A DNA stretch of 30,094 bases from a virus: positions 1-30,094 of IMG/VR virus record IMGVR_UViG_3300044970_001347; one strand, 5' to 3'. Under the pieces are notes generated by a model that was not told where the DNA came from, ran no database searches, and was given only the letters and a program-made list of their open reading frames with translations. Positions within the stretch are counted from its first letter, which is position 1. Every line of letters starts with the position of its first letter. Positions 2,283 through 20,535 of this stretch are shown piece by piece. A program made the translations under genes and the position numbers.

Positions 2283-2581
2283 CGCTCCACCCCGTTGAGC
2301 CGATCGGCCACCAGCTGCGCATAGCCAGCGATGTCGTGCCAGCTGTCGGCATAGTCGGGATCGCCGTTGATAATCCGGCCGATCTTGTGGCAGATCATGT
2401 CGAGGGCTTCCTGCTGGTCCGGGGCCAGGTGGTTGCCGTGTGATCCATCGGCTCTGGTCCGGCCCAGCGGTGTGTGCTCGCTGATGACGGTCTTCAGATC
2501 TTGGGTGATGCGTGCGTGGCCTATGAAGCGGCCGTAGCGCTGGCCCCGCTCGGTGAGCGTGGCGGTGATGTCGGTGGTCAT
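2279..2581 (-). CDS. DUF6378-type phage protein
   Basis: A 100-residue protein matching from memory the DUF6378 pattern: an N-terminal RGQRYGRF, then HARITQDLK, and a C-terminal block 'QQEALDMICHKIGRIINGD' followed by DSWHDIAGYAQL. The glutamate/lysine-rich helices and the DSWxDIAGY signature recall the all-alpha MazG-like NTP pyrophosphatase fold, but catalytic acidic clusters are not obvious, so enzymatic activity is not claimed. It is coupled to the methyltransferase upstream and the small zinc protein downstream by ATGA overlaps. Soluble, cytoplasmic. Confidence 0.7.
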   Translation of the reverse strand: MTTDITATLTERGQRYGRFIGHARITQDLKTVISEHTPLGRTRADGSHGNHLAPDQQEALDMICHKIGRIINGDPDYADSWHDIAGYAQLVADRLNGVER

Positions 2582-3996
2582 TTGGTCGTCGTGCGTGTGG
2601 ACTTGCGCCGGAGCTTCTCCGGCAAGGTGAGCCCCTTGATGCGTGCGACGCGCGCGTTAAGCGCCGCCCAGTCCTCGAGGGACTTAAACCGGAAGTGGCC
2701 GGTGCCCTTCTTGTAGACCTTGAACTCGAAGAAGCCCCAGTCGAGCCACACGCCGGGCTCCAGCCGGTTGTAGCCGCAGGCGGGATCCTCGACCTTGGCA
2801 TAGGGCCGGCCGGTGATGTAGCAGAGCGCCTTGATCAAATCCCTGATGTGCGGGAAGTTGCCGCTCCACTGCTTCAAGCTCACGGTGTGAGGCCGCCAGT
2901 CAGGCTCGGCGATGTAGGGCACGATGAACTTCTGGTTGAACAGGTAGGCGTCATTGGTCGCCCAGCCTTCAACCTGCCAGCGGTTCTCCTTCGTGTGGCG
3001 CGTGAGCTCATCAAACGCGGCTTCGACCGCGCGGTCGATCCGTTGCTCTGATGTGCCGGCAATGATCTGCAGCATCCGGAACAGGTTCCGCTCCGTGAAC
3101 GGCACCTTCGTCTGCTGCTCCACGAACGTGTTGATGTCCCCCTGGAGCTGGCTAGTGGCGATCTCGCGCGGCAGCATCTCGGCGATCACCGATTCCCAGA
3201 ACGCCTTCTGCAGCTCCTTGCGAAAGCTGTTGCGGCTGGCGGCGCAGCCCTCCATCGTGATCTGGAGGCCCAGCTCGCCTTTGTAGATGCCGCCCACCTG
3301 GGCCTGCAGGCGCACGCCGGCCTCGAGCTGCTGGTCGTAGATGCGGCAGGCCTCGACGTAGCGGTTCACCAGGTCGCGCGAGCGGCGGTAGCGGATCAGC
3401 CCCTGGCCCTGGGCCTCGATGTCGTCGGGGCCCAGGAAGAACCCGTCGAACTCGTCAGCGTCGGGCCGGCTACCAGGCTTGGTGAGGCGGACCAGGCCGA
3501 TCTCGCAGCGCGTCGTGCGCTCGGCATCCTCGAACACCGGGCCCAGGTTCTGGCGGCTGCCGTAGGAAGCGATCAACGTGCGCAGCTCCCGGCTGGCGCG
3601 GAACCCGTAACGGCTGTCGTCGATCGTGTTCCAGTTGCACAGGCTGACGATCTCGCAGCCGGCCGGGGCGATGGCCCAGGCGTGCAAGATGTGACGCTCG
3701 TCCGCGCTGAAGGGCGGGTTCATCACCACCAGGTCGGCGTGGCTGATCTGCTCAGCGGTGATGGCCAGCCAGTCGTTGCCAATCAGCCGGCTGCCCTGGA
3801 TGGCGGCGAGGATCGCCCGCAGCTTCGGCTCGGGCTCCACCGCCAGCACCTCGGCAGCGCCGCGGGCCATGGCCTCGGTGACCAGGTTGCCGCTGCCGGC
3901 GGATGGCTCCACCACCACCCGACCGCGCAGGTCGAGCGGGTCGAGCATGGTGGCCGCCACCTCTGGCGGCGTGGGGTAGAAGTCGGCGTTGAACAT
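2578..3996 (-). CDS. DNA methyltransferase-like protein with DUF4942-type C-terminus
   Basis: A 472-residue class I SAM-dependent methyltransferase. The N-terminus has FYPTPP (6-11), SAM-binding motif I VEPSAGSGNL (29-38), an acidic residue at the end of strand 2 (VEPEP) and the catalytic motif NPPF (93-96), typical of N6-adenine or N4-cytosine enzymes. The C-terminal two thirds, with GFFEFKVYKKGTGHFRF near the end, look like DUF4942, a domain found with phage and plasmid methyltransferases. The start ATG at 3996 has a strong GGGGGAGGAG ribosome site and a one-base stop-start overlap with the upstream gene; a longer frame upstream overlaps that gene and is rejected. Probably self-protection against restriction; the target sequence is unknown. 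Confidence 0.8.
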   Translation of the reverse strand: MFNADFYPTPPEVAATMLDPLDLRGRVVVEPSAGSGNLVTEAMARGAAEVLAVEPEPKLRAILAAIQGSRLIGNDWLAITAEQISHADLVVMNPPFSADERHILHAWAIAPAGCEIVSLCNWNTIDDSRYGFRASRELRTLIASYGSRQNLGPVFEDAERTTRCEIGLVRLTKPGSRPDADEFDGFFLGPDDIEAQGQGLIRYRRSRDLVNRYVEACRIYDQQLEAGVRLQAQVGGIYKGELGLQITMEGCAASRNSFRKELQKAFWESVIAEMLPREIATSQLQGDINTFVEQQTKVPFTERNLFRMLQIIAGTSEQRIDRAVEAAFDELTRHTKENRWQVEGWATNDAYLFNQKFIVPYIAEPDWRPHTVSLKQWSGNFPHIRDLIKALCYITGRPYAKVEDPACGYNRLEPGVWLDWGFFEFKVYKKGTGHFRFKSLEDWAALNARVARIKGLTLPEKLRRKSTRTTTK

Positions 3997-4259
3997 CACT
4001 CCTCCCCCAGCGCCCGCATGTGGTTCTCGACGATCGCCATCAGGGTGTGCGGCACCTGCGGATGCTTGGGCACCCAGCGCTTCGGATCCCAACCCGCACC
4101 GGTCCATCGCGCGGTCTGTTCCAGCAGCTTGCGCTTGCCGTTGTGCTTCAGGAACCGCACCACCATCGGGTCAGTCACGTAACGGGGCTGGCGCTCGACC
4201 GTCCACCAAGGACCGAATTGAGCGATGTCGTGCGTGTCGCGGTGGATCAGCTCAGCCAT
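3996..4259 (-). CDS. Small hypothetical protein, paralogue of the next gene upstream
   Basis: An 87-residue protein (MAELIHRDTHDI...). It aligns by eye with the 92-aa product of the adjacent gene at 4252-4530: both have a Trp-rich start (WWTV / GWTI), VRF followed by GKRKLLEQ or GQRKLLDQ, then RWVPKHPQVP or RWLPKPPVVP, and end with VENHM or VAHMS. This indicates an old tandem duplication. It overlaps its paralogue by eight bases and touches the methyltransferase start. The family is not recognised. Confidence 0.6.
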   Translation of the reverse strand: MAELIHRDTHDIAQFGPWWTVERQPRYVTDPMVVRFLKHNGKRKLLEQTARWTGAGWDPKRWVPKHPQVPHTLMAIVENHMRALGEE

Positions 4260-14311: not shown

Positions 14312-15031
14312 ATGACTTCTGTGACAATCCCGGCGATGGCCAAGCGCATCGAGCTCTGGCCCGTCGGGAAGCTGGTTCCGTACGAGCGCAACGCGCGCAC
14401 CCACTCGACTGAGCAGATCGGCCAGCTCGCCGCGAGCATCGTCGAGTTCGGCTTCCTCAATCCGATCCTGGTGGACACCTCCGCGGGGATCCTGGCGGGC
14501 CATGGCCGGCTGGCCGCGGCGCAACAGCTGGGCTTGGCGAAGGTGCCGGTGGTGGTGCTCGACCACCTGGATGAGCGGCAGCGCCGCGCCTACGTGCTGG
14601 CGGACAACAAGCTGGCGGAGAACGCGGGGTGGGACCTGGAGCTCCTGCGCCAGGAGATCAACGCGATGGAGATCGACCCGGCGGTGCTGGGCTTTGGCGA
14701 GGACGACCTGAAGCGACTGCACGACGGGCTGGAGCTCGAGGCGTTCGAGGGCATGGCGGAGGCCGGCACGGAGCGCGCGGAGCCGGAGCGGCAGCCGGGC
14801 CTGGGGCTGCCGGATGGCGACGACGAGGATGAGGCTGCAGACGCGACAGCGGAGAGCGGCGAAGTGGAGGAGCGGCACATCTTCAGCGTGAACCTGCTGT
14901 GGGATGACCGCGAGGTGGTGCTGGCTGCGGTGCGCGCGGCGAAGGAGCGCCATGGGCTGGAAGGAACGCCCGAGGCGCTGGTGCAGATCTGCAGGGAGTG
15001 GCTGGATGAGCAAGGCGCTGGAACTGATTGA
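14312..15031 (+). CDS. ParB/sulfiredoxin-fold protein
   Basis: A 239-residue protein. The N-terminal ParB-like domain (about 10-115) has LVPYERNARTHSTEQIGQLA, then FGFLNPILVD, the phosphoesterase/nucleotide-binding-type motif LAGHGRLAAA, and VLADNKLAENAGWD. This version usually forms the N-terminal part of phage DNA methylases, but no methylase follows: instead there is an acidic linker (about 150-190) and a short helical C-terminal domain, WDDREVVLAAVRAAKE. ATG 14312 is chosen; ATG 14336 is possible. It overlaps the cupin gene by 26 bases. ParB-fold domains can bind CTP or act as nucleases; which applies is unknown. Confidence 0.8.
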   Translation: MTSVTIPAMAKRIELWPVGKLVPYERNARTHSTEQIGQLAASIVEFGFLNPILVDTSAGILAGHGRLAAAQQLGLAKVPVVVLDHLDERQRRAYVLADNKLAENAGWDLELLRQEINAMEIDPAVLGFGEDDLKRLHDGLELEAFEGMAEAGTERAEPERQPGLGLPDGDDEDEAADATAESGEVEERHIFSVNLLWDDREVVLAAVRAAKERHGLEGTPEALVQICREWLDEQGAGTD

Positions 15032-15710
15032 GCTGGGGCATGGGCTGCTGCGCGAGCTCCCGGATGCCCGGCTGTGGGGCGTGGATGATGGGGCCCTGGT
15101 GCTGGGCGAGGACGCGACGCACTTCGTGTTCTGCTACCAGGGCGCGGTGACGATTCGGCAGAGCGGGGCATGGCCGCATGTGCTGACGGCGGGAATGTAT
15201 GCGTCGGCGCCAGGCAAGTGCGAGGTGCGGCCGGTGGGCCAGGACCTGAGCCGGGGCATCGTGATCAGCCGGCATCGCTGGCTGGGGGTGATGGTGATCG
15301 GCGGGCCGCTCGAGGAGCGCGGGCGGCTGCGCTACATCGACGGCTGCACCGACAGCCTGCTGGTGCCGCCGGTGCGGATGGGCGACCCGTGCCTGAACGG
15401 GCTGTGGTTTCCGCTGGGCACCGAGCAGACGATGCACACACACCCGAGCGTGCGTGTGGGGATGGTGGTGCGCGGGCGTGGGTGGTGCGAGACGCCGGAG
15501 GGCGAGTTCGAGCTGCGGCCTGGGATGGTGTTTGTGATCCACCCGCACGGTGAGCACCGGTTCAGGACGGGGCGTGATGCAGGGCTGACGGTGGTGGCGT
15601 GGCACCCGGACAGCGACACGGGCCCGACGGACGTGGATCACCCAATGCTCAATCGCACGATGGTTGCGGGCGTGTCGGCCGCGGCGATCCCGGAGCTGCA
15701 GACGCGATGA
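15006..15710 (+). CDS. Cupin-domain protein
   Basis: A 234-residue protein whose C-terminal half is a cupin barrel: metal-ligand candidates MHTH (about residues 142-145), the GMVVRGRGW strand-turn, and PGMVFVIHPHGEHRF with His ligands near residues 179-183. The N-terminal half (HFVFCYQGAVTI, VLTAGMYASAPG) has a similar rhythm and may be a degenerate second barrel. Cupins may be metal-dependent oxygenases, isomerases or sensors. It is coupled to the PAPS-reductase-like gene by ATGA. A cupin in this ParB/PAPS-reductase setting is not familiar to me. Confidence 0.72.
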   Translation: MSKALELIELGHGLLRELPDARLWGVDDGALVLGEDATHFVFCYQGAVTIRQSGAWPHVLTAGMYASAPGKCEVRPVGQDLSRGIVISRHRWLGVMVIGGPLEERGRLRYIDGCTDSLLVPPVRMGDPCLNGLWFPLGTEQTMHTHPSVRVGMVVRGRGWCETPEGEFELRPGMVFVIHPHGEHRFRTGRDAGLTVVAWHPDSDTGPTDVDHPMLNRTMVAGVSAAAIPELQTR

Positions 15711-16879
15711 CGCTGCGGCCGACGAGCACCAACCAGGACGTGATGACTGCAGCGCTGGATCGGATCCGGCGGATCTACGACCTGTTCGACCGCGTGGTGG
15801 TGAGCTTCAGCGGGGGGAAGGACTCGACGACGGTGCTGAACCTGACGGCGATGGTGGCGCGCGAGCGCGGCCGGCTGCCGCTGGACGTCTACTTCGTCGA
15901 TGAGGAGGCCTGCTACCCGGAGACGATCGAATACGTCGAGCGGGTGCGCGCCAGGGATGATCTGCGGTTCTTGTGGTGCTGCCTGCCGATCAAGCACCGG
16001 AATGCTTGCGCCAGGACGCAGCCGTGGTGGAACTGCTGGGATCCGGCAGCGCGTGACCGGTGGATCCGGCCGCTGCCGGCGGGCGCGGTGACCTTGCGGG
16101 ATGCGCCACGGTTTCGGATGGGGATGCAGCTCGACGATGTGGGCCCGGTGCTGTTCGGGCCTGAGTGCGGGACGGTGGCCGACCTGACGGGGATCCGTGC
16201 GCAGGAGTCGGTGCGGCGGCTGCAGACGGTGACCAAGAAGGTGCGAGACAACTACATCGCTGGCGCGCGCGAGGGCTACTACTTCAACTGCAAGCCGATC
16301 TACGACTGGAAGGCCGAGGACGTGTGGGTGGCGGCGAGCCGCGAGGGGTGGGACTACAACCGCGCCTATGACGTGCAGGCAATGATGGGCACCAGCGTGA
16401 GCCTGCAGCGGGTGACGCCACCCTTCGGCGAGGAGCCGCTTGGCGGGCTGTGGAAGTATCCGCAGGGATGGCCGGAGCTGTGGGAGCGGATGCTGCGGCG
16501 CGTGGAGGGTGTGGGCACGGCGGGCCGCTATGCGCGCACGGATCTGTATGGCGCGGCGCTGAAGGAGCCGCCGCCGGGCATGACCTGGCAGCAGTGGTCG
16601 CGAAGCCTGCTGGAGCTCTATCCGGCGAAGGAGCGCGCGGAGATCGCGCGGAGCATGGCGGGCGTGATCCGGATGCACCAGAAGAAAACGCACCGGCCGA
16701 TCCACGAGACGAAGGACGACGTGATGAGCGGCCTGAGCTGGCGGTACATCTGCCAGATGGTGAGCCGCGGCGACCTGAAGGGCCGGAAGAAGGGCCAGCT
16801 GACGCAGCGCGCGATCGCAGCGGCGAAGAAGGCGGGGCTGACGTTCGACGAGGTGAAGGCGCTGGAGGTGAAGCGATGA
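15707..16879 (+). CDS. PAPS-reductase-like PP-loop ATPase (IbrA-like)
   Basis: A 390-residue member of the phosphoadenosine phosphosulfate reductase-like group. The PP-loop SFSGGKDSTT (about 33-42) binds ATP and is followed by the VYFVDEEACYPETIEYV strand-helix and LTGIRAQESVRRL, the LxGxRxxES motif. Middle phrases FNCKPIYDWKAEDVWV complete the family order. The C-terminal 130 residues are helical and basic. It is longer than true CysH and lacks the usual C-terminal cysteine pair; in organisation with the following gene it resembles the IbrA/IbrB pair. It could activate a substrate by adenylation for sulfur transfer. That chemistry is inference. Confidence 0.85.
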   Translation: MTLRPTSTNQDVMTAALDRIRRIYDLFDRVVVSFSGGKDSTTVLNLTAMVARERGRLPLDVYFVDEEACYPETIEYVERVRARDDLRFLWCCLPIKHRNACARTQPWWNCWDPAARDRWIRPLPAGAVTLRDAPRFRMGMQLDDVGPVLFGPECGTVADLTGIRAQESVRRLQTVTKKVRDNYIAGAREGYYFNCKPIYDWKAEDVWVAASREGWDYNRAYDVQAMMGTSVSLQRVTPPFGEEPLGGLWKYPQGWPELWERMLRRVEGVGTAGRYARTDLYGAALKEPPPGMTWQQWSRSLLELYPAKERAEIARSMAGVIRMHQKKTHRPIHETKDDVMSGLSWRYICQMVSRGDLKGRKKGQLTQRAIAAAKKAGLTFDEVKALEVKR

Positions 16880-17400
16880 GCGTGGCGGAGCAGCCGGTGA
16901 GCAGGGTGCGATGGCTGCCGCGCGAACGGCTGCGGGGCAATAGCTACAACCCCAACGTGGTGGCGGCCCCGGAGCTGGAGCTGCTGGTGGTGAGCATCCT
17001 GGAGGATGGGTGGACGCAGCCGATCGTGACGCTGCCCGAGGACCAGGGCGGCAGCTTCCAGATCGTGGATGGGTTTCACCGGTGGACGGTGAGCGCAGAT
17101 CCGCGACTGCTGGCGCTCACCGGTGGCCAGGTGCCGACGGTGCAAGTGCGGCTCGACCCAGTGCATCGGATGATGAGCACCATCCGCCACAACCGGGCGC
17201 GCGGCACCCATGCGGTTCTGAAGATGGCGGACATCGTGCGGAGCATCGCTGATGACGGCGTGCCACAGAAGCAGATCCAGAAGCGGCTGGGGATGGAATC
17301 GGAAGAGGTGGTGCGGCTGGTAAATCGAGCCGGGATGCCTACCCAAGTGCGCAAGGTGGCGGCAGGATTGAACAAGGCCTGGGTGCCAGGGAAGGGCTGA
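16876..17400 (+). CDS. ParB-fold protein (IbrB-like)
   Basis: A 174-residue ParB/sulfiredoxin-fold protein. Visible features are WLPRERLRGNSYNPN at the start, VSILEDGWTQPIV, the catalytic-type loop IVDGFHRW (about 63-70) and an Arg-rich MMSTIRHNRARGTH, followed by a helix-turn-helix-like tail (QKQIQKRLGMESEEVVRLVN). It starts inside the stop of the PAPS-reductase-like gene (ATGA), the same order as ibrA-ibrB. The HTH tail suggests DNA contact. IbrB-type proteins are known as partners needed for activity in the Ibr regulatory pair. Confidence 0.82.
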   Translation: MSVAEQPVSRVRWLPRERLRGNSYNPNVVAAPELELLVVSILEDGWTQPIVTLPEDQGGSFQIVDGFHRWTVSADPRLLALTGGQVPTVQVRLDPVHRMMSTIRHNRARGTHAVLKMADIVRSIADDGVPQKQIQKRLGMESEEVVRLVNRAGMPTQVRKVAAGLNKAWVPGKG

Positions 17401-17795
17401 TGACGAACCGCGCTCCGATCCTGCAACTCACCTGGGCCGGCTTTGAAGCAGCGGTGGATCTGATTGCTGCGCAGTGCCGGCCTCGTGATCGCGCGGGCGT
17501 GCATGGCGTCGATCCAGCGGGGCAGCTGCTGGCCTATGAGCTCGGCGAGCGGCTCGGGTTAAACACGCTTTCGCAAGCAGGGCCCGGGACCATCGAGATT
17601 TATGGCCTGGCGATCAAGCCATCGCCCTCCACATGGTCATGGCCGGACGTCGAGGTGTGGGCCTGGGTCGACGCGACCGAGGCGCAGTCGGTGCAATCGG
17701 TGATGAAGGTGACGGCTGGCACGACGGTGCTCATGCCTTGGCAGGATGCGAGCGCGTCACAACGGCGAACGTTCGTCGCTGGATTTGATGATTGA
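17400..17795 (+). CDS. Possible phosphoribosyltransferase-like protein
   Basis: A 131-residue protein. The segments DRAGVHGVDPAGQLLAYELGERLGL resemble, over two short stretches (GVHGVDPAGQLLA), the 'GvprGG' strand and helix of type I phosphoribosyltransferases, and VEVWAWVDATEAQSV sits where the PRPP-binding acidic loop would fall. The acidic pair of that loop is not clearly conserved, so the enzyme may be inactive or the match fortuitous. It begins by a one-base overlap with the IbrB-like gene. Confidence 0.45.
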   Translation: MTNRAPILQLTWAGFEAAVDLIAAQCRPRDRAGVHGVDPAGQLLAYELGERLGLNTLSQAGPGTIEIYGLAIKPSPSTWSWPDVEVWAWVDATEAQSVQSVMKVTAGTTVLMPWQDASASQRRTFVAGFDD

Positions 17796-18072
17796 GATCG
17801 CGCGGATTACCTACGGCTGCCAATGGGATGAACATGGGCACGTGAGGGCCTGGCCGATGCGGATCAGCTTTGGCGCCGAGGGACCCGAGGTCACGGTGGA
17901 TCAGATGCTGGAAGGCCGCGGCCACACCGTGATGCTGATCGACCAGCTGGTGGAGCTGGTGTGCGGGATGACGCCGCAGGAGACGCCGATCCAGCTCGGG
18001 CATCATGCGCCGCCGGGCCTGGGCCGCAAGCTGGTCGATCGTGGCTTCTACGTTGAGTTGCTCCGCGACTGA
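17788..18072 (+). CDS. Small hypothetical protein (94 aa)
   Basis: A 94-residue protein starting MIEIARITYGCQWDEHGHVR and containing VTVDQMLEGRGHTVMLIDQL and a Gly/Pro-rich end. It starts eight bases inside the previous gene (ATGATTGA) and its stop overlaps the small terminase start by one base (TGATG). It physically links the accessory cassette to the packaging genes. No family is recognised. Confidence 0.5.
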   Translation: MIEIARITYGCQWDEHGHVRAWPMRISFGAEGPEVTVDQMLEGRGHTVMLIDQLVELVCGMTPQETPIQLGHHAPPGLGRKLVDRGFYVELLRD

Positions 18073-18638
18073 TGCTGATCAAGTTGGCCGAGTATGCAGC
18101 CCGCCATGGGGTGAGCCCGCAGGCGGTGCGAAAGGCCATCAACACGGGCCGGCTGCAGCGCAGCGTGCAGCGCGAAGGCAAGAGCTGGTGGATCGACCCG
18201 GAGGTGGCCGATATCGAGTGGGGCCGCAACACGGCGCCGGAGCAGCAACGCAGCAAGGATGCGATCAACGCGGGCAAGAAGGCGGCTCGCGGCGAGGCCG
18301 TGCCGCTGCCGCCGGTGGGCCCACCGGTGGGGAAGGGTGGCGCCACCTATGCGAGCGCGAAGGCGGCGGCCGAGGGCTACAAGGCGATGCTCCTCAAGCT
18401 CGATTACGAGGAGCGGGCCGGCAAGCTGGTGGACAAGGCGGCGGTGGAGCGCAGCTTCGCTGCTGCTGGAATGCAGGTGCGTGATGCGGTGATGCGCACG
18501 AGCCAGCAGATGGTGGGCGAGATTGCGTCAGCTGTTGGCGGGATGACGCAGGAGCAGCGCGCAGCGGTGCTGCAGGTGATCGACCGGCATCATGTGAGAG
18601 CCCTCGAGGAGTTGGTGCGTGCATCTGGCGTCGGCTGA
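18072..18638 (+). CDS. Terminase small subunit (Nu1-like)
   Basis: A 188-residue DNA-packaging protein of the Nu1 type. The N-terminal winged HTH (KLAEYAARHGVSPQAVRKAI, then NTGRLQRSVQREGKSWWIDP) would bind cos DNA; the centre is a long Ala/Lys-rich helix (KAAAEGYKAMLLKLDYEERAG) and the end is a helix for the large subunit. It is immediately followed, with a 20-base overlap, by the large subunit, as in lambda-type packaging. Its start overlaps the accessory cassette. Confidence 0.85.
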   Translation: MLIKLAEYAARHGVSPQAVRKAINTGRLQRSVQREGKSWWIDPEVADIEWGRNTAPEQQRSKDAINAGKKAARGEAVPLPPVGPPVGKGGATYASAKAAAEGYKAMLLKLDYEERAGKLVDKAAVERSFAAAGMQVRDAVMRTSQQMVGEIASAVGGMTQEQRAAVLQVIDRHHVRALEELVRASGVG

Positions 18639-20535
18639 TGATGCGCTGAAGGCGTTCTGGCGGACGCTGCGGCCTGACCCGCTGCTGACGGTGAGCGAGT
18701 GGGCGGATCAACGGAGGGTGTTGAGCCAGAAGGCGTCCAGCGAGCACGGTGAGTGGAAAACTTCCAGGACGCCGTATCTGCGCAAGCCGATGGATGACCT
18801 GTCGGCGACGAGCACTGTGCAGGAGGTGGTGCTGGTGTTCGGCGCGCAGATGGGGAAGAGCGAGATGCTCAACAACTGGATGGGCTACGTGATGGACATC
18901 CAGCCGGGGCCGGCACTGTTTGTGCAGCCGACCATCGACATGGCGAAGCGCTACAGCAAGATGCGCATCGCGCCGATGATCGAGGCGACGCCCAGCTTGG
19001 GCGAGAAGGTGAAGGCGCCGCGCGAGCGCGACTCGGGCAACACGCAGCTGATGAAGGAGTTCACCGGCGGCTTCCTGATCCTGGGCGGGGCCAATGCAGC
19101 GAGCGGCCTGGCGTCGATGCCGATCCGGTTCCTGGGCGGCGACGAGATCGACCGCTGGCCGGCAGACGTGGACGAGGAAGGCAGCCCGCTGGCGATCGTA
19201 AGCGCGCGGACGCGGACGTTCGGCGTGCGGAAGAAGCAGGCGTGGACATCGACGCCAACGATCGCGGGCCGCAGCCCGATCTGGTCGAAGTGGGAGACAA
19301 GCAATCAGCAGCAGCTGAAGCTGCCCTGTCCGCACTGCGGGCATCAGCAGATGATCGAGTGGGACCGGATCCGGTACGACCCGAAGGATCCGGGCCTGCC
19401 GAACACGCTGCGGACGCCGCCGGTGCTGATCTGCGAGGCGTGCGGCGAGGGCATCAGCGAAGACGCGAAGGCCTGGTGGTATGACCCGGAGGTGTTTGAC
19501 GAGGAATGGTGGGAGCCGCTGTTCCCTGACCGCGAAGTGCAGGGCTACCACTGCTCGGCGCTCTACTCACCCCTGGGCTGGTTCAGCTGGACTGAAGCCG
19601 CGGTCGGCTATGAGCAGGCGAAGGACAACCCGGCGGACTTGAAGCCGTGGTGGAACACGGTGCTGGCCGAGTGCTGGAACGACGACGGCGAGGCGCCGGA
19701 CTGGGAAGCGCTCTACAACCGGCGGGAGCTCTACGAGCTGGGCACGGTGCCCGACGGCGTGGTGTTCATCACCTGCGGCGTCGACGTGCAGATGGACCGC
19801 CTCGAGCTGGAGGTGGTGGGCTGGGGCCCTGGGATGGAGAGCTGGAGCCTCGACTACCAGGTGCTCGCCGGAGACACTGCGCAGCCGGCCGTGTGGCGGG
19901 AGCTGACGAAGTTCGTGCGCTCGGAGTTTGGCCGCGGCGACGGGCAGCGGCTGCCGATCAGGATGACGGCGATCGACTCGGGCTTCAGGAGCCAGGAGGT
20001 CTACCGCTGGGTGCGTGGCCAGGCCGGCAACAGCGTGATTGCGATCAAGGGCCAGGAGAGCCAGACAGCGATCATCGGCACGCCGGGCCGCGTCGAGGTG
20101 CTGCGCAATGGCAAGGCGCTGCGCGGCGGCGTGAAGGTGTGGCCGGTCGGCAGCAGCACGGCGAAGAGCGAGCTCTACGGCTGGCTGCGGCGGCCGATGC
20201 CTGACGACGGCGATGGCCTGCCGCATGGCTGGTGCCACTTCCCGCAGCACGGCGAGGAATATTTCAGGCAGCTCTGCGCCGAGCGGCTGACGAACACGAT
20301 CGACCGGCGGGGCTACAACCGGTTTGAGTGGATCAAGACGCGGCCGCGCAACGAAGCGCTGGACTGCCGGGTGTATGCGCGGGCCGCGGCGGCGCTAGTC
20401 GGCGCTGATCGCTGGAGCGAGGATCGCTGGGAGACAGAGCGCACCGGCGGGTTGCAGCGTGAGGAGCGGCGGCCTGCGCCGGTGCAGGAGGATGAGGCGG
20501 CGCCGCGGCCATCAGGATCGAGCTTCTGGGACTGA
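18619..20535 (+). CDS. Terminase large subunit (GpA family)
   Basis: A 638-residue GpA-type terminase. The ATPase has a Walker A-like FGAQMGKSEM (about 73-82) and Walker B FLGGDEIDRW (about 171-180); a zinc-finger-like pair, CPHCGH and CEACGE, lies near 237-275, and the nuclease half has GVDVQMDRLELEVVGWG then AIDSGFRSQEVY, which carry the metal-binding acids. The start is GTG with a GAGGAG ribosome site inside the small subunit gene. It pumps DNA into the prohead and cuts at cos. Confidence 0.93.
   Translation: MHLASADDALKAFWRTLRPDPLLTVSEWADQRRVLSQKASSEHGEWKTSRTPYLRKPMDDLSATSTVQEVVLVFGAQMGKSEMLNNWMGYVMDIQPGPALFVQPTIDMAKRYSKMRIAPMIEATPSLGEKVKAPRERDSGNTQLMKEFTGGFLILGGANAASGLASMPIRFLGGDEIDRWPADVDEEGSPLAIVSARTRTFGVRKKQAWTSTPTIAGRSPIWSKWETSNQQQLKLPCPHCGHQQMIEWDRIRYDPKDPGLPNTLRTPPVLICEACGEGISEDAKAWWYDPEVFDEEWWEPLFPDREVQGYHCSALYSPLGWFSWTEAAVGYEQAKDNPADLKPWWNTVLAECWNDDGEAPDWEALYNRRELYELGTVPDGVVFITCGVDVQMDRLELEVVGWGPGMESWSLDYQVLAGDTAQPAVWRELTKFVRSEFGRGDGQRLPIRMTAIDSGFRSQEVYRWVRGQAGNSVIAIKGQESQTAIIGTPGRVEVLRNGKALRGGVKVWPVGSSTAKSELYGWLRRPMPDDGDGLPHGWCHFPQHGEEYFRQLCAERLTNTIDRRGYNRFEWIKTRPRNEALDCRVYARAAAALVGADRWSEDRWETERTGGLQREERRPAPVQEDEAAPRPSGSSFWD

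Follow-up and report, generated by a model that had tools for sequence, protein, structure and literature searches.

A widespread ParB-cupin-IbrA-ParB gene cassette before the terminase genes of uncultured phages and its possible role in DNA modification

Introduction

Adjacent genes for IbrA, a protein with PAPS_reduct and DUF3440 domains, and for the ParB-fold protein IbrB (IbrA/IbrB in E. coli, YbdN/YbdM in K-12, and a PHROG 2302 protein next to a ParB protein in phages) are found in hundreds of phages and also in bacteria, where they are usually annotated as sulfur genes. The pair is known to activate host target genes of the eib type, and no biochemistry of it was found in the open-access literature. 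Here we analyse a complete viral record of 30,094 bases (IMG/VR record IMGVR_UViG_3300044970_001347, referred to as the window), in which the same two proteins stand side by side, whereas a constant cupin, a second ParB gene upstream and a position before the terminase genes distinguish the locus from the simple pair.

Among systems that modify DNA, CmoY is a ligase that resembles asparagine synthetase, forms AMP and attaches glycine to the carymethylcytosine of phage DNA. Genes with ParBc domains are frequent near CmoY in phages, and versions of the CmoX/CmoY systems that contain an amidotransferase are known (PMC12783734). DpdB is a ParB-like ATPase of the system for insertion of 7-deazaguanine into DNA, and DndB is another, in phosphorothioation systems (PMC12839542).

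Results

Four genes form the conserved core of the locus

Six plus-strand genes between positions 14312 and 18072 of the window follow each other with successive overlaps of 1-26 bases and continue into the terminase genes:

14312..15031, plus strand: ParB1, 239 aa, ParB/sulfiredoxin fold, core gene 1 (Pfam ParB_N 4.5e-9, PHROG 620 1e-51)
15006..15710, plus strand: bicupin, 234 aa, core gene 2 (Cupin_2 8.6e-8)
15707..16879, plus strand: IbrA-like PP-loop ATP-pyrophosphatase, 390 aa, core gene 3 (PAPS_reduct 4.9e-13, DUF3440 1.9e-11, PHROG 2302 1e-86)
16876..17400, plus strand: ParB2, an IbrB-like ParB-fold protein, 174 aa, core gene 4 (PHROG 2159 7e-56)
17400..17795, plus strand: g5, 131 aa, outside the core cassette
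17788..18072, plus strand: g6, about 94 aa from a conserved ATG
18072..18638, plus strand: terminase small subunit, TerS (PHROG 57 2e-22)
18619..20535, plus strand: terminase large subunit, TerL, of lambda GpA type (GpA_ATPase 5e-77, GpA_nuclease 3e-88)

The cupin starts with ATG and overlaps ParB1 by 26 nt, ATGA overlaps join cupin to IbrA and IbrA to ParB2, and the overlap between ParB2 and g5 is 1 nt.

Viral contigs with relatives of the cupin or of IbrA were collected, and each gene of the locus was sought in them with its own profile. The best 80 matches per query were kept, and the counts given below are biased towards relatives of the window. The IMG/VR contigs come from uncultured viruses and are in many cases fragmentary, and gene calls outside the window are mechanical; single loci are cited by their L numbers. 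Among the viral cupin contigs with enough sequence on both sides, ParB1, cupin, IbrA and ParB2 were all present in 47 of 53. A strict count gave 44/53 with ParB1, IbrA and ParB2, to which L035, L164 and L166 were added, as their ParB1 lies in a frame missed by the overlap filter but is listed in the profile scans. The six exceptions comprised two deletions (L025, L027), two contigs with another partner of the cupin (L023, L024), L140, with the order IbrA-ParB2-cupin, and L165, in which ParB2 lies beyond the contig end. Gene order and overlaps were kept in about 40 viral loci, with ParB1 upstream of the cupin in most, and a variant order in which the cupin follows ParB2 was seen in L146-L148, L152 and L155. 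Against the four closest relatives, the ratio of nonsynonymous to synonymous polymorphism (pN/pS) of the four core genes was 0.06-0.33, revealing purifying selection. A chance gene order is ruled out by this selection and by the conservation across phages.

A first-pass annotation of the window had proposed a coupled unit of six genes, in which an IbrA/B-like pair was joined by a cupin and an extra ParB. Its gene list was correct for all six genes and their positions, except for the phosphoribosyltransferase (PRTase) label given to g5. The pair, the cupin and the extra ParB do travel together, and the neighbourhood survey, with all four genes in the great majority of testable contigs, did not bear out an independent variation of cupin and ParB1. 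In contrast, g5 and g6 were found only in the lineage of the window and its close relatives. Therefore, the core unit has four genes and is smaller and more widespread than the six-gene proposal.

The cupin family is common, with 273 viral matches and at least 81 genome matches. In INPHARED (50,697 phage records) it had no tblastn match, hence no cultured phage of that set offers itself as a test case. No published description of the four-gene cassette was found in the open-access literature. The cassette is thus real, widespread and conserved, and is built on the known but unexplained IbrA/IbrB pair.

With IbrA from a Microcystis phage as the query, 80 further viral loci were retrieved, and four phage records were added. 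IbrA was nearly always beside a ParB protein in them, and none of the 84 sampled loci of this type carried the cupin. In a tree of 82 IbrAs, the cupin-linked proteins fell on one side of a branch with a Shimodaira-Hasegawa-like approximate likelihood-ratio (SH-aLRT) support of 100; the cupin-less sample is dominated by relatives of one query, so that the tree shows clustering and not a dated origin.

The cassette can be lost as a block

In L025-L027 and L028, a block running from within the cupin to within g5 was missing, while ParB1, g6 and the terminase were kept, and a cupin stub was the sole remnant of cupin-IbrA-ParB2 in these deleted relatives of the window's lineage. Therefore, cupin-IbrA-ParB2 is lost as one block, which ParB1 can outlast. 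In L028, ParB1 itself (positions 99-620) has an internal deletion (173 aa), as if decaying in a phage that has also lost the block.

Such clean loss would suit a moron-like defence module directed at rival phages (superinfection exclusion), as would the presence of PP-loop enzymes in Dnd, Ssp and BREX type 4 and the distant BrxP/DndC matches of IbrA in PADLOC. We regard this role as quite improbable, as the cassette is embedded in, and overlaps with, the packaging operon in many lineages instead of standing alone, and no recurring nuclease or toxin effector was present in it.

The cassette precedes terminases of unrelated families

Terminase genes were sought with seeds from PHROGs 15, 2/3717, 9 and 38. 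TerL was detected 0.3-3.4 kb downstream of the cassette in 72 of the 77 judgeable viral loci, and these downstream genes belong to at least four unrelated families. As a control, cupin-less IbrA loci showed TerL downstream in 13/57 with the same seeds, which other terminases may escape. Therefore, the continuation into the terminase recorded in the first-pass annotation is a general rule of the cassette and not a local accident.

This linkage, shared by unrelated terminases, could also be expected of a late regulator or packaging helper, in which ParB1 and ParB2 would be clamps or nickases of DNA dependent on nucleoside triphosphates (NTPs) that prepare packaging or set its timing, and IbrA and the cupin would supply or sense a cofactor; both DNA nicking and NTP hydrolysis are among the activities of ParB/Srx proteins (PMC12839542 and references therein). 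That explanation appears improbable, because it leaves an invariant PP-loop enzyme and a cupin without a reason, and because relatives devoid of cupin-IbrA-ParB2 keep an intact terminase.

IbrA is probably not a PAPS reductase

The PP-loop of IbrA (SFSGGKDST, residues 33-41) is intact, and its SGGKDST part is invariant or conserved across IbrAs. The structural model, with a predicted local distance difference test (pLDDT) score of 85.8, has the PP-loop fold and is nearest to the PAPS (3'-phosphoadenosine 5'-phosphosulfate) domain of flavin adenine dinucleotide synthase, CysD and APS (adenosine 5'-phosphosulfate) reductase (Z 14-16), with Z 13-15 against CysH/APS reductases. These similarities were found only by profile and fold comparison, as phmmer gave no match of IbrA to PDB sequences. 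The VIA-align rows scarcely cover IbrA past residue 258 or so, which is not taken as a sign of a new fold. The ECGxH motif, which holds the C-terminal catalytic cysteine of sulfonucleotide reductases, was found in 0/98 IbrA sequences. Because of this absence, IbrA, an ATP-pyrophosphatase-type enzyme, is probably not a PAPS reductase.

The names given by Pfam and PHROG, and phage papers that annotate such genes accordingly (PMC10434257), would make the cassette an auxiliary sulfur-metabolism set with IbrA as a PAPS reductase boosting host sulfate assimilation. We consider this very improbable, since the reductase motif is missing throughout, DUF3440 is present as an additional domain, ParB and cupin are constant companions, and the alternative partners of the cupin are of the asparagine-synthetase type; as a leading account, a sulfate-assimilation gene was rejected because of the missing motif and the ill-fitting partners.

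Membership of a Dnd or Ssp system was also rejected, since the matches are distant and confined to the PP-loop: the PADLOC DndC profile scored 31.7 bits, through the N-terminal PP-loop only, and TIGR03183 (DndC) 22.4 bits against a cut-off of 290.

ParB1 and ParB2 keep the residues of NTP-binding ParB folds

ParB1 keeps a P-motif-type G63..R66 and N99, and ParB2 keeps DGFHR (65-69) and RHNRARG (N106); the P-motif arginine (R66/R69) and the box III asparagine (N99/N106) are conserved at 0.98-1.00 in the two families. ParB2 scored 1.4e-5 and 25.4 bits against ParB_N, just below the cut-off of 26.3, and its matches in PDB were ParB/Noc/Spo0J. According to a published survey, ParB folds bind ATP, GTP or CTP, and the P-motif arginine is needed for NTP binding (PMC12704722). 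No ParA partner was seen among the genes examined, in a search that was not exhaustive.

The cupin is a putative metal enzyme with other partners outside the cassette

The AlphaFold2 model of the cupin (pLDDT 95.3) is a bicupin, with EF2996, YlbA/ureidoglycine aminohydrolase and BacB as the nearest folds (Z 18-20). Its N-terminal barrel is degenerate and the metal-type histidines are in the C-terminal one. H144, H146 and H184, the metal-binding histidines of both cupin motifs, are about 100% conserved in phage and bacterial cupins; C114, C129, C161, Y110, D112, Q141, R150, H200 and H212 are also essentially invariant, and the glutamate of motif 1 is replaced by the invariant Arg150. From these residues, the protein may be a three-histidine metal enzyme. 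In a tree of the family, phage and bacterial copies were not cleanly separated, giving no direction of transfer.

In bacterial chromosomal loci, asparagine synthetase was encoded within 4.5 kb of the cupin in 44/75, and a TOPRIM-like protein that has membrane segments and a zinc ribbon was encoded there in 33/75. Clusters of the three genes were observed in Planctomycetes, Competibacteraceae, Methylococcales and others (L051, L072, L094, L112 and others in L048-L123), and apparently constitute an undescribed operon.

In the phage contigs L023 and L024, the cupin overlaps (ATGA) the gene for a distinct PP-loop protein with an SGGxDST motif, without IbrA or ParB, and in Lewinella a relative of this PP-loop protein (33% identity, E=1e-40) is encoded before the cupin. 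In the phages and in Lewinella-type bacteria, the cupin and SGGxDST PP-loop pairs lie at:

L023:4119-5707
L024:603-2173
L056:6931-8699

One cupin family is therefore paired with three PP-loop families, namely IbrA, asparagine synthetase and the SGGxDST protein.

Further genes were found inserted in cassettes. Between cupin and IbrA, L162 (4386-4919) and L165 (9432-9965) carry a stand-alone class II glutamine amidotransferase with an N-terminal Cys and MCGI, GHSR and HNGN motifs, beside a second PAPS-like PP-loop protein of a kind present in about eight loci. In the same interval, L141 (8799-9512) has a DNA methyltransferase (PHROG 757); a scan for methyltransferase motifs near the cassette showed no enrichment compared to cupin-less loci. 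After ParB2, a third ParB and then a radical SAM-like protein (CxxxCxxC) were detected in L020 (10433-12290) and L032 (5388-7258), making another pair of a ParB and a partner enzyme. A ParB-DUF4417 fusion lies between ParB2 and g5 in L014 (2777-3913), and a LAGLIDADG homing-endonuclease-like gene between IbrA and ParB2 in L017 (2378-2905).

Because the cupin has asparagine synthetase, another PP-loop protein, glutamine amidotransferase and DNA methyltransferase among its partners, an ATP-dependent group transfer, perhaps of nitrogen, is favoured over sulfate reduction. For the same reason, transfer of nitrogen (amide or amine) is somewhat more likely than that of sulfur. Of the roles first put forward for the locus, DNA modification remains the leading idea, whereas sulfur chemistry, faced with IbrAs devoid of the reductase motif and with asparagine-synthetase-type and amidotransferase partners, is no longer favoured.

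The same partners bear on another explanation, in which the cassette would act not on DNA but on a small molecule or free nucleotide, whose synthesis or destruction would blunt host defence or tune infection; IbrA would adenylate a metabolite, the cupin would convert it and the ParB proteins would be NTP-sensing switches, in line with the nucleotides bound by their fold. The pairing with asparagine synthetase, which is seen in bacterial chromosomes away from any phage DNA, argues for it, and so do the nearest cupin folds, which are small-molecule enzymes (ureidoglycine aminohydrolase, BacB, AerE). We nevertheless judge it unlikely, as two ParB proteins and the tight terminase linkage point to phage DNA, and one cassette holds a DNA methyltransferase.

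Lineage-specific genes and other features of the window

No Pfam, PHROG, NCBIfam or PDB match was obtained for g5. Its residues 10-53 gave a local hhalign match to a PRTase profile (probability 81%, single-comparison E=1.2e-5), with values of 0.16 for the reversed control and 0.011 for g6. The loop that binds phosphoribosyl pyrophosphate (an acidic pair, then TG[RKT]T) was absent from the g5 alignment. A PRTase-like N-terminal half is thus weakly supported by the profile similarity; an active phosphoribosyltransferase was rejected, and the identity first assigned to g5 was not established. No known family was found for g6 in Pfam and PHROG searches. In the g6 alignment, M15 of the open reading frame (ORF) beginning at 17746 is invariant, and the start was therefore placed at this ATG (17788).

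Elsewhere in the window, the minus strand encodes a 509-aa protein (2578-4107) with an N-terminal methyltransferase-like domain and DUF4942, another candidate DNA methyltransferase of the phage. A short minus-strand ORF (1717-2073), RlpA/expansin-like as judged from its sequence, lies opposite a 23-bp match to IbrA DNA at 1999-2021; this match, antisense to the ORF, was attributed to chance.

Discussion

We tentatively favour the reading of ParB1-cupin-IbrA-ParB2 as a mobile phage cassette for the ATP-dependent covalent modification of phage DNA or of nucleotides destined for DNA. A more specific form of it is possible but more doubtful, namely a hypermodification system in which IbrA, the cupin and the two ParB proteins use adenylation, probably with nitrogen transfer, to introduce a novel modification of base or backbone just before packaging.

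The analysis shows the gene order, joint inheritance, terminase linkage, families, folds and intact active-site motifs; the substrate, product and benefit of such a system, its action on DNA and all of its chemistry are inferred. The cassette would be co-expressed with the packaging genes and immediately precede them. IbrA would split ATP to AMP and pyrophosphate and adenylate a base or precursor at an oxygen or carboxylate, which would then give way to a donor group or be linked to one, with the cupin, as a putative metal enzyme, preparing or finishing donor or product. ParB1 and ParB2 may have nucleotide and DNA as ligands and either direct the reaction to phage DNA or control it, in the way proposed for DpdB and DndB in other modification systems. 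The likely benefit would be escape from host restriction.

Several points weigh against DNA modification. No modified nucleoside, substrate or protein interaction has been shown, and no enzyme for an initial base modification, for instance a C5-carboxymethyl or hydroxymethyl transferase, was seen to be conserved with the cassette. Most cassettes lack the amidotransferase gene, and the same holds for the methyltransferase and radical SAM genes; the adjacency to the terminase may reflect only shared late transcription. Finally, IbrA/IbrB pairs devoid of the cupin are also carried by bacteria and prophages for which we know of no reported DNA modification.

Should the modification reading hold, a further pathway of DNA modification and a further means of countering restriction would be known from uncultured phages, and the IbrA/IbrB pair, widespread but long without explanation, would receive its first molecular function. 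A fixed four-gene set before unrelated terminases, together with the cupin/asparagine synthetase pairing, turns a vague sulfur annotation into a testable hypothesis on virion DNA.

Comparison with known systems

Bicupin enzymes such as YlbA/UGHY ureidoglycine aminohydrolase, BacB and AerE have the two-barrel fold in common with the phage cupin (Z 17-20) at 9-16% identity, whereas the latter has its own signature, YIDGCTD...GDPCLN...HTHPSxR, with Arg150 in place of the motif-1 glutamate. Like the cassette, the phosphorothioation systems DndBCDE and SspABCD and the BrxP-containing BREX type 4 combine a PAPS-reductase-family enzyme with a ParB-superfamily protein (DndB); no cysteine desulfurase (DndA), DndD, DndE or Ssp partner was found among the annotated or clustered neighbours, not every neighbour having been searched. 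In the Dpd 7-deazaguanine system (DpdA/DpdB), the ParB-like ATPase DpdB resembles the ParB proteins of the cassette (PMC12839542), and neither a DpdA of the tRNA-guanine transglycosylase type nor DpdC was seen near it.

For CmoX/CmoY hypermodification, a motif scan showed no CmoA or CmoX conserved with the cassette, with one methyltransferase insertion (L141). IbrA differs from CmoY in belonging to the PAPS-reductase branch and matching PAPS_reduct instead of Asn_synthase; the cassette has a cupin, and asparagine synthetase is the partner of this cupin only in bacteria. CmoY is the closest biochemically tested precedent for the cassette; both systems bring together an AMP-forming enzyme of the PP-loop type and nearby ParBc proteins.

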